NCBI GenBank assembly: GCA_003242035.1
Contig: QBMC01000016.1
Coordinates: 1 to 46,473, forward strand
Length of the DNA stretch: 46,473 bases
Direction of reading: 5' to 3'
From: Nodosilinea foveolarum
GTDB taxonomy: Bacteria > Cyanobacteriota > Cyanobacteriia > Phormidesmidales > Phormidesmidaceae
Shown: positions 10,978 to 15,039 of the stretch, in pieces
How the letters are laid out: the number at the start of each line of letters is the position of its first letter
How positions within the stretch are numbered: position 1 is the first letter of the stretch
The notes under the pieces: generated by a model
The model's database searches: none
Told to the model about the DNA's origin: nothing
The model's input: the letters and a program-made list of their open reading frames with translations, nothing else
Position numbers and translations under genes: made by a program

Positions 10978-12609
10978 ATGCTGCGCGTTAACGACGTAAA
11001 ACTCCCCTTAGACCACACCGAAGCAGACCTTCGGAGCGCCATTTTACAAAGGCTCAAAATCTCTGCGACAGACCTCAAAAACTATACTGTTTTCAAGCGC
11101 AGCTACGATGCTAGAAAGCGCGACAACATTTCACTGGTCTATGCCGTTGATGTAGACACCCCCAAGCAAAAACAGATTCTTAAAACCACCCAAAAGAGTC
11201 AGCGCATCATCCCCACGCCCGACATGACCTATCGGCCCGTCGCGCAGGCCCCTAATCCGCTAAAGACTCGACCCATCGTGATTGGGGTTGGCCCTTGCGG
11301 CATGTTTAGTGCGCTCCTGCTCGCTCAGATGGGCTTTAGGCCGATTGTTTTAGAACGAGGCAAGGCGGTTCATGAGCGATCGCAAGACACTTTCGGCTTT
11401 TGGAGCAAGCGCAAATTCAACCCCGAATCCAACGCGCAGTTTGGCGAAGGCGGCGCAGGCACTTTCTCCGACGGCAAACTCTACAGCCGCATCAAAGACA
11501 ACGACCACCACGGCCGCAAAGTCCTCACCGAGCTAGTCGCCGCCGGAGCTGTCCCAGAAATTTTATACATCAGCAAGCCCCACATCGGCACCTATCGCCT
11601 GGTAAAAATTGTTGAAAACATTCGCCACAAAGTAATTGAGCTAGGCGGAGAAATTCGCTTTCAAAGTCGAGTAGAGCGCCTTGAAATAGAGGGCGACAAG
11701 AACAACCGAAAAGTTCGAGGGGTTACTTTAGAGAGCGGTGAGTTTATTGAGAGCGATCGCGTCATTCTAGCCGTCGGTCACAGCGCTAGAGACACCTTTG
11801 AAATGCTCTTAGAACAGGGCGTTTACATCGAGCCAAAACCCTTTTCCGTCGGCTTTCGCATCGAGCACCCCCAGCCGCTGATCAACGAGCGCCGCTTCGG
11901 TAAAAATTCTAATCATCCCGTCTTAGGCGCTGCCGACTACAAGCTAGTCCATCACTGCGAAAAGGGCATTGCCAAAGGTCGCAGCGTTTACAGCTTTTGC
12001 ATGTGCCCCGGCGGAAAAGTGGTCGCCGCCACCTCAGAAACAGGCCGAGTGGTCACCAATGGCATGAGCCAATACGAACGCAGTGGTAAAAATGCCAACA
12101 GCGGCATCGTCGTTGGCATCACACCAGCAGACTATCCAGGCAGTCCACTAGCAGGCATTCCCTTTCAGCGTCAGCTAGAAGAAAAAGCCTACGAGCTAGG
12201 CGGCAAAACTTACGAAGCCCCTGGGCAGCTTGTAGGAGACTTTCTCGCGGGACGCCCCTCTACCAAACTAGGAACGGTGGAGCCTTCCTATAAACCGGGC
12301 GTTCATCTGTGCGATTTGGCAGAGAGTTTGCCGGATTATGCGATCGCTGCCATCCGCGAAGCCATCCCCGCCTTCGATCAAAAAATTCCCGGCTTTGCCA
12401 TGCCCGACGCCGTGCTCACAGGCGTAGAAACCAGAACCTCATCGCCCATCCGCATCAAACGCAACGAGCAGTACCAAAGCCTGAACACGCAAGGGCTTTA
12501 TCCCGCTGGGGAAGGCGCTGGCTACGCGGGTGGCATTCTTTCCGCCGCTGTAGACGGCATCAAAGTCGCCGAAGCCGTTGCCCTCAGCATGGTTGCCACA
12601 AAATCATAA
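10978..12609 (+). CDS. FAD-dependent oxidoreductase of the COG2509 type
   Basis: A 543-residue flavoprotein. An N-terminal domain of about 95 residues (MLRVNDVKLPLDHTEADLRS) precedes the Rossmann motif VIGVGPCGMFSALLLAQMGF (GxGxxG at 103-108). It continues with FGEGGAGTFSDGKLYSRIKD and an FSVGFRIEHPQ segment, and closes with LYPAGEGAGYAGGILSAAVD, a typical FAD-binding end. The same architecture is widespread in bacteria and annotated only as a FAD-dependent dehydrogenase; substrate and pathway are unknown. It is transcribed toward the tandem structured elements at 12645-12960, one hairpin of which may serve as its terminator. Confidence 0.88.
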   Translation: MLRVNDVKLPLDHTEADLRSAILQRLKISATDLKNYTVFKRSYDARKRDNISLVYAVDVDTPKQKQILKTTQKSQRIIPTPDMTYRPVAQAPNPLKTRPIVIGVGPCGMFSALLLAQMGFRPIVLERGKAVHERSQDTFGFWSKRKFNPESNAQFGEGGAGTFSDGKLYSRIKDNDHHGRKVLTELVAAGAVPEILYISKPHIGTYRLVKIVENIRHKVIELGGEIRFQSRVERLEIEGDKNNRKVRGVTLESGEFIESDRVILAVGHSARDTFEMLLEQGVYIEPKPFSVGFRIEHPQPLINERRFGKNSNHPVLGAADYKLVHHCEKGIAKGRSVYSFCMCPGGKVVAATSETGRVVTNGMSQYERSGKNANSGIVVGITPADYPGSPLAGIPFQRQLEEKAYELGGKTYEAPGQLVGDFLAGRPSTKLGTVEPSYKPGVHLCDLAESLPDYAIAAIREAIPAFDQKIPGFAMPDAVLTGVETRTSSPIRIKRNEQYQSLNTQGLYPAGEGAGYAGGILSAAVDGIKVAEAVALSMVATKS

Positions 12610-12644: not shown

Positions 12645-12760
12645 CTTTAAAAAGAAAAAGGAGAGTCCCCAATTACCTTGGTGAACTCTCCCTACCATCA
12701 GGGTGCATCTACATATTCACAGTATGGCACGATAGGGATGAGGGGTACAACCCCTTATTG
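12645..12760 (-). ncRNA. Putative small RNA, copy 1 (structured, own terminator)
   Basis: Read on the minus strand, a -10-like TAGAAT (12766-12771) precedes a possible start near 12759. A 5' hairpin follows (stem AGGGGT/ACCCCT, 12741-12755), then a largely unpaired conserved centre. A 3' hairpin with stem GGAGAGT/ACTCTCC (12660-12691, inner helix CCAA/TTGG) follows, and then a T tract (12649-12659). The expected transcript is about 112 nt. Alternatively the 3' hairpin is only a terminator for gatB, and the G4/C4 hairpin one for the plus-strand oxidoreductase. Family is not recognised. Confidence 0.45.
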
Positions 12761-12827
12761 TCCGTATTCTAGAAATCAATAAAATTAAGACTGTCGGAAC
12801 CGCTAGAGCGCAAAGGGTAGCAAAGTC

Positions 12828-12948
12828 CTTTAAAAAGAAAAAAGGAGAGTCCTCTAATTACTTAGGTGAACTCTCCCTACCATCAGGGTGCATCTACATG
12901 GCCACAGTATGGCATGTTAGGGGTGAGGGGTGTAACCCCCTCTTGTTC
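12828..12948 (-). ncRNA. Putative small RNA, copy 2 (structured, own terminator)
   Basis: Same layout as copy 1 on the minus strand. A TAGAAT box lies at 12951-12956. The 5' hairpin GAGGGG/CCCCTC is at 12925-12942 and the conserved centre at about 12877-12915. The 3' hairpin GGAGAGT/ACTCTCC spans 12844-12876 with an inner CTAA/TTAG helix, and a T-rich run (12831-12843) follows. The inner helix is kept although its bases differ from copy 1, which argues for a selected RNA structure. The expected length is about 113 nt. This copy is nearer gatB and could also end gatB transcripts. Confidence 0.5.
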
Positions 12949-13066
12949 GTATTCTAGAATTTTAGCGTCTGTATTCTAGAATTTCGCCATACGACGCCAA
13001 TTTTGATAGCCTCAGCGAAAATCAGCCCTAGAGCCTACCGCATTAAGCCCTAATCTCCTTAGAAAA

Positions 13067-14560
13067 TTACCCATTCAGCTTTTTTCCTAACAGTTGATTT
13101 GTCAGTTTAGGATCGGCTCGTCCCCCCGTTCGCTTCATCACCTGCCCGACAAAAAAGCCTTTCAGCTTCGTCTTACCGGCTCTGAACTTAGCTAGCTCAT
13201 CCGGGTTTGCGGCTAGCACTTCATCAATCATGGACTCAATCTCTGCCGGGTCAGAAATCTGGCTTAATCCTTGGCTCTCCACGATTTTCTTTGGCGATCC
13301 ACCCTGATCTAGCAGCTCTGGCAACATGTCTTTGCCGATTTTGTTGCTAATCGTACCGTCCTCAATCAGCTTCACCATTTCAGCTAGTGCCTCTGGCGTC
13401 AGCTTTAGCTCGTCGATACTCACCTTTTCAGCGTTTACGTAAGCCGCAATATCGCTCATGATCCAGTTGGCCACTAGCTTGGTTGAAGCGCCCGAGGCGA
13501 TCGCTCCTTCAAAATATTCCGCCGTCGCCCGGTCATCTGTCAGCACCGCCGCATCATACGCCGAAAGGCCCAAGTCTTCCTCATACCGATGCCGCTTCGC
13601 CGCAGGCAACTCCGGCAGCGCCTCTCTCCATGCCTTAAGCTGATCTGCCGTCACCTCAATCGGCGGCAAATCTGGCTCCGGAAAATAGCGATAGTCGCTA
13701 GCGCCTTCCTTCATGCGCATACTCTTCGTCCGCTGCGCCCCTTCTTCCCACAGCCGAGTCTCCTGGTAGATTGGCTCGCCTGCTTCTACCGCTGCAATTT
13801 GCCGTTCAATCTCGTAGTCGATGGCTTTGGCGATCGCGCTAAATGAGTTCATATTCTTAATCTCGACCTTGATGCCAAATTCCTCTTGGCCCACCGGTCG
13901 CACCGAGATATTCACGTCACAGCGCAGCGATCCTTCCTGCATGTTGCCATCGCCCACACCGAGGTAGCGAATAATCCGCCGAATCTCCTCCGCATAAGCC
14001 GCTGCCTCTTCCCCAGAGCGAATATCCGGCTCCGACACAATCTCCACTAGCGGCACCCCCGCCCGGTTGTAGTCCACCAGCGAATAAGTTGAGCCATCAA
14101 GACTTGCCGCCCCCGCGTGAACCAGCTTCCCGGCATCTTCTTCCATATGCAGCCGGGTCACCCCAATGCGCTTACGCACCGGCTCCCCATCTTTCACAAT
14201 CTCAATTTCCAGCCAGCCATGCTCCGCAATCGGCAAATCGAACTGCGAGATCTGATAGTTCTTCGGCAAGTCGGGATAAAAATACTGCTTGCGATCAAAC
14301 TTGCTATAGGGCGCAATCTGACAGTTCAAAGCCAGCCCCGCCTTCACCGCATACTCCAACACCTTTTCATTCAGCACGGGCAGCACCCCAGGCAGGCCCA
14401 TCGTCACCGGGTCTACGTGCGTATTTGGCTTAGCGCCAAACGCCGCTGAGCTAGTAGAGAAAATTTTTGTCTCTGTGCTGAGCTGGCAGTGAGTTTCCAA
14501 ACCGATTACAGCTTCGTACTTAGTCTTACTTTGGGTTTTAGTCGGCGTGGCAGCAGTCAT
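13067..14560 (-). CDS. gatB: Asp-tRNA(Asn)/Glu-tRNA(Gln) amidotransferase subunit B
   Basis: A 497-residue GatB, the tRNA-binding and kinase subunit of GatCAB, which converts Glu-tRNA(Gln) to Gln-tRNA(Gln). It opens with [20 protein letters not shown] and contains [31 protein letters not shown] and [11 protein letters not shown]. The C-terminal YqeY-like tail ends in [18 protein letters not shown]. The frame extends 54 bases further upstream, but -10-like boxes (14590-14602) lie inside that extension, so I take the ATG at 14560. Neither gatA nor gatC is in the window. Confidence 0.96.
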
Positions 14561-14589
14561 AGGTGCTTCGAGGGTTAAGGCCAGGGGAT

Positions 14590-14602
14590 ATTCTATATAA
14601 TA
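14590..14602 (-). promoter_or_regulatory. Candidate gatB -10 region
   Basis: On the minus strand TATTAT and TAGAAT lie in the run TATTATATAGAAT about 30-42 bases before the chosen gatB ATG. No good -35 is seen. Its position supports the shorter gatB start. Confidence 0.4.
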
Positions 14603-15039
14603 GACAGCGATCAAAAAGCTCGGTCGTTACATTGATAATTGTAGCTTCTAGCCAGAATTTGAAGGCGATCGCCAGCCAGCACCTAAAAGTTGTAGATTGG
14701 GCAGTCCTCACAGAACCAGAGACCTCAGCAGACATTACGAATGAGAAATGAGAACCTGTTCATATCTCGTCAGCTTGACGCCACGCAAAAATCGGCCTAT
14801 CGTCAATAACTAAGGCTGTGATGCCTATCACGGTCATTCACTCAGAACTCAACTGACTAAAGCGCTATCGGCAGATGCTAGTAACACCTACCGACAGCTA
14901 ACTCCCAAACTGATCTCGCCAGTCTGTGAGCTAAGGTCAATGTACCTTAGCGACTCCGATTTGCACTACATTTTGCGGCGTGGCTAAGGTCATTTGGGTT
15001 CTGGTTTCCTCGAAAACAAACCTTCGGAGACCAGATCTC
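14603..15039. other. Intergenic region without a supported gene
   Basis: This 437 bp stretch separates gatB (minus) from the small ORF at 15040. Short open frames exist on both strands, but none shows a recognisable domain, a good ribosome site or plausible composition. I see no strong hairpin. Confidence 0.5.

Follow-up and report, generated by a model that had tools for sequence, protein, structure and literature searches.

The window, a 46,473-nucleotide stretch of Nodosilinea foveolarum DNA (contig QBMC01000016.1), carries two direct copies of a short element on the minus strand of 12645-12981, between gatB, which lies upstream on the same strand, and a FAD-dependent oxidoreductase gene, and overlapping neither reading frame (Table 1). 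The copies at 12671-12774 and 12856-12959 share 88% identity over 104 nt and are spaced by 185 bp. A weaker extension of 34 nt (12646-12679 and 12830-12863; 76% identity) brings the unit to ~130 bp, in agreement with the sequence-only reading, which had described a directly repeated unit of this size in which each copy bears on its minus strand an open core followed by a terminator hairpin with a T tract. Both of these parts are indeed present in the two copies.

Table 1. Features of the twin RNA locus, in window coordinates
Feature	Position	Strand	Basis
FAD-dependent oxidoreductase, beyond the 3' side of the copies	10978-12609	+	reading frame
Copy 1 terminator: hairpin at 12660-12692 plus T tract	12646-12692	-	sequence, fold, covariation
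Predicted sRNA copy 1, ~62 nt; 5' core AUGUAGAUGCACCCUGAUGGUA and terminator	12653-12714	-	model R1, 65.9 bits; RF02399, 22.9 bits (below cut-off); fold; 5' end deduced from NsiR1 and the -10
-10-like hexamer CATACT, copy 1	12721-12726	-	sequence, homologue comparison
Copy 1 dyad resembling a HetR box; minus strand of 12742-12754 reads GGGGTTGTACCCC	12740-12756	.	reference site, PMC4192349
TTCTAGAATAC element ahead of the copy 1 HetR box; genus level only	12764-12774	.	
Copy 2 terminator: hairpin at 12844-12877 plus T tract	12830-12877	-	sequence, fold, covariation
Predicted sRNA copy 2, ~63 nt	12837-12899	-	model R1, 65.5 bits; RF02399, 23.3 bits (below cut-off); fold
-10-like hexamer CATACT, copy 2	12906-12911	-	sequence, homologue comparison
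Copy 2 dyad resembling a HetR box; minus strand of 12927-12939 reads GGGGTTACACCCC	12925-12941	.	reference site, PMC4192349
Pair of TTCTAGAATAC elements ahead of copy 2, 22 bp apart; genus level only	12949-12959 and 12971-12981	.	
gatB, upstream of the copies, same strand	13067-14614	-	Pfam GatB_N and GatB_Yqey

The predicted RNA of both copies opens with the 16-nt core GUAGAUGCACCCUGAU, which is unpaired in the centroid fold of each and invariant across homologues although it lies outside the terminator. The inner pairs of the terminator stem do change between the copies with pairing kept, as had been claimed, and over 44 homologues the stem is 95% paired, with 23 double-changed cells versus 4.8 in shuffles. 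A micro-ORF was considered, as the core contains ATGCACCCTGAT, and rejected: wobble positions are invariant too and, on inspection, the letters downstream keep no frame. Viral contigs, searched with one pattern, gave no match that would indicate carriage by phages. Each copy is probably a compact minus-strand gene for a regulatory RNA of ~60-65 nt that starts at the core. The open conserved core and the terminator support the proposal of a pair of genes for sRNAs of the trans-acting type. The 130-nt layout in which a 5' hairpin preceded core and terminator is not supported: the presumed hairpin coincides with a promoter dyad and the RNA, at ~62-65 nt, would begin at the core.

A DNA search found matches in 42 of 58 genomes, including the window's own, and core and promoter recur in hundreds of genomes, i.e., above chance. 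Among 80 HetR-box copies examined, 60 have gatB directly ahead on the same strand and none adjoins gatB in any other arrangement; the other 20 had no gatB within the stretch of DNA examined. These loci had been selected on the RNA, independently of gatB, and several come from the same genome, so that the 60 are not all independent. The oxidoreductase is not conserved as a neighbor. Such frequent placement behind gatB is what would be seen if the repeats were merely terminators or ends of read-through transcripts, with no RNA of their own. We regard this as highly improbable, since every copy is preceded by a promoter at a fixed spacing, the core is invariant outside the terminator, and copies with no gatB in the DNA examined have the same layout.

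This layout, with two regulatory RNA genes as its preferred reading, consists of GGGGTNNNACCCC, followed after ~15 nt by a TATACT-like hexamer and, 7-8 nt further on, by the core, the stem, and the T tract. In most of 51 copies, the dyad occupies ungapped positions -41 to -29 relative to the core and the hexamer -13 to -8; the window copies have one base more between hexamer and core. The site of HetR, a regulator of cell differentiation, in the hetP promoter is GAGGGGTCTAACCCCTC, and HetR-DNA structures require GGGnnnnnCCC (PMC4192349). Both window dyads contain this GGGnnnnnCCC, as the hetP site does, and are the best matches to the hetP 17-mer in the 46 kb, with three mismatches each. Unlike the hetP site, which precedes a protein gene, they stand before a small RNA gene, in the place of its -35. 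Exact GGGGTNNNACCCC sites number three in the 4.75-Mb genome, two of them being the window dyads. The third (L196:1501-1513; C241:25125-25137 in the same genome) closely precedes a 410-aa frame without a Pfam match, which is possibly a further HetR target.

The dyad had been taken for a G/C hairpin of the RNA whose pairing was kept while its bases changed. The conserved -10, however, lies downstream of it, and the GGGG/CCCC arms do not vary and keep pairing no better than shuffles; pairing exceeds that of shuffles only at the innermost positions and, to a weak degree, at the outer ones. Because arms fixed in the manner of a protein site go along with a terminator stem that covaries, the dyad reads as promoter DNA and not as an RNA stem. 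Judged from its sequence, it is a HetR-box-like promoter element that takes the place of the -35. The TAGAAT box is present as reported, but its role as a promoter is not borne out: these elements are found only within the genus and are degenerate in some of its members, in contrast to the -10 hexamer (CATACT in the window), which is general among homologues. A third TTCTAGAAT element at 12971-12981 lies beyond the span first described.

No Rfam family reaches its cut-off anywhere in the window. At a lowered threshold, both copies match NsiR1 (RF02399; gathering cut-off, 39 bits) with the scores given in Table 1, in an alignment carried by the identical 16-nt core and the terminator. The sequence-only reading, which did not recognize the sequence and made no link to HetR, missed this kinship. 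It was right that the RNA is neither Yfr1 nor PsrR1, as neither is matched at threshold or appears among the weak matches, with the caveat that Rfam 15 may hold no PsrR1 model. Like NsiR1 of Nostoc sp. PCC 7120, the window copies combine this core, a length of ~60 nt, an intrinsic terminator, and tandem copies with their own promoters, each of the two, 185 bp apart, having its dyad and -10. They differ in the element at -35, which in NsiR1 is DIF1 (TCCGGA) and here the HetR-box-like dyad, in terminator sequence, and in location, since the NsiR1 array lies upstream of and antisense to hetF. NsiR1 expression is HetR-dependent and heterocyst-specific.

By promoter type, the 151 distinct core-bearing copies fall into 108 that match the HetR box (of which 94 begin at -42 to -40), 37 with a DIF1-like TCCGGA near -36, and 6 with neither. 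For comparison, a control region further upstream yielded 20 HetR-box matches and shuffles yielded 9.3; the rule of three mismatches is loose, and chance may account for some of those among the 108 that sit at odd positions. The window copies could simply be diverged members of NsiR1 and no separate class, for which the identical core, the tandem habit, and the individual promoters speak. An NsiR1-like RNA of 57 nt, RNA162, has also been mentioned in Limnospira indica PCC 8005, which lacks heterocysts but has hetR (PMC8400943); the likeness to the window RNA extends to these traits, the text giving no locus or promoter. We nonetheless consider plain NsiR1 membership unlikely. The NsiR1 cut-off is passed by the DIF1 arrays of L183, L161, and L184 and by a tandem pair in the window's own genome (L180:4055-4205; C299:27054-27204) that scores 44.9 and 50.7 bits and has a DIF1-like TCCTGA upstream, but it is reached neither here nor by the copies in eight other loci (L008, L019, L017, L003, L186, L018, L118, and L189). 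Promoter element, terminator, and locus all differ, and both classes stand side by side within one genome. The window RNA is thus more plausibly a sibling class of NsiR1, as yet without a name and not captured by the Rfam model. Our literature search, with the original NsiR1 papers of 2010, 2014, and 2020 outside its reach, turned up neither an account of a HetR-box class linked to gatB nor a printed version of the core sequence.

The distribution of the RNA was compared with that of the HetR family in 390 cyanobacterial genomes of the class. Matches to the RNA model R1 at E<=1e-3 occurred in 187 of 188 HetR-positive versus 24 of 202 HetR-negative genomes, a count that mixes the two RNA classes because R1 reaches both; at 1e-8, the figures were 179/188 and 10/202. 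The one HetR-positive genome without a match at 1e-3, G043, misses that limit narrowly and carries an exact core preceded by a DIF1 motif. Among 22 named genomes, the RNA was found in all 12 with hetR, while of the 10 without hetR, Hydrococcus gave a strong match and the genome of L024 a weak one. Since the genomes are related and the counts ignore kinship, the association across the 390 overstates the number of independent events. At the level of genome sequences, the HetR-box class nevertheless goes with the presence of hetR. Symplocastrum torsivum (G398, the genome of L003) has 21 model matches, several of them strong, on scattered contigs, which suggests an expansion of the RNA.

Alternatively, the RNA could be real and not under HetR control. 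The dyad would then serve a different regulator or act chiefly as a substitute for the -35, and the link with hetR would reflect the common descent of filamentous cyanobacteria. Boxes kept without detectable hetR in two well-assembled genomes (G040 and G367), and also in two more fragmented ones (G005 and G286), favor such a scenario, as do survey counts that ignore kinship. The loci in the first two are L107 (G040) and L188 and L184 (G367); both genomes have box-bearing copies, and one also has an NsiR1 array above the Rfam cut-off. We think the scenario rather improbable: the dyad fits the published HetR site (PMC4192349) and is very rare in the genome, and it is missing in three groups that keep the RNA, namely, Hydrococcus (L018), G069, and the genomes of family f31, all without detectable hetR. 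These three groups may represent fewer than three losses. The f31 copy at L189:2223 (G257) retains core and terminator, has no HetR box, and lies away from gatB.

Direct control of the box class by HetR is what we infer instead, with activation more likely than repression, even though the position of the box, by sequence, fits both equally. HetR would bind the box and switch the RNA on (less likely off) as its level rises, probably upon nitrogen limitation. The unstructured invariant 5' core may then pair with translation start regions of target mRNAs, by analogy with NsiR1, which is HetR-dependent and in Nostoc represses alr3234 by pairing with its translation initiation region (PMC9045159). 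Taken as a whole, this explanation, i.e., two tandem genes of a HetR-controlled sibling of NsiR1 that pairs through its open core, is one in which we place good, though by no means complete, confidence. Since the two classes share their core, HetR-box and DIF1 copies probably reach overlapping targets, as two arms of a single regulatory system. The DIF1 promoter type is HetZ-dependent for hetR, patS, and patX. A complement to the core of at least 11 nt was found nowhere outside RNA genes in 1.13 Mb of DNA, the sole match being a diverged copy of the RNA. The hetR leader was rejected as a target: in the window's own genome the predicted interaction reached -17.8 kcal/mol versus a shuffle mean of -16.1, and only one of nine hetR loci beat all its own shuffles.

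The host genome contains hetR and gave no match to nifH over the family cut-off. HetP, the family of a known NsiR1 target, has no family match there either and is matched in two of seven genomes of the genus. From its gene content, the host appears to be a non-diazotroph without heterocysts. The NsiR1-type pair on C299, a genuine one, sits in a genome with no nifH above the family cut-off.

The HetR-controlled, gatB-linked RNA may go back to the ancestral HetR regulon of multicellular cyanobacteria, before heterocysts arose, with the NsiR1 arrays of heterocyst formers as a DIF1-driven offshoot or sister; we see this scenario as evenly poised between right and wrong. What HetR does in filamentous species that form no heterocysts has been called a mystery (PMC11298460). 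A short RNA that has a HetR-box promoter and occurs with HetR nearly everywhere surveyed would provide such species with a defined and testable HetR output, and its invariant core would offer a direct route to the target genes. There would then be at least two classes with a common core under two promoter types, NsiR1 among them.
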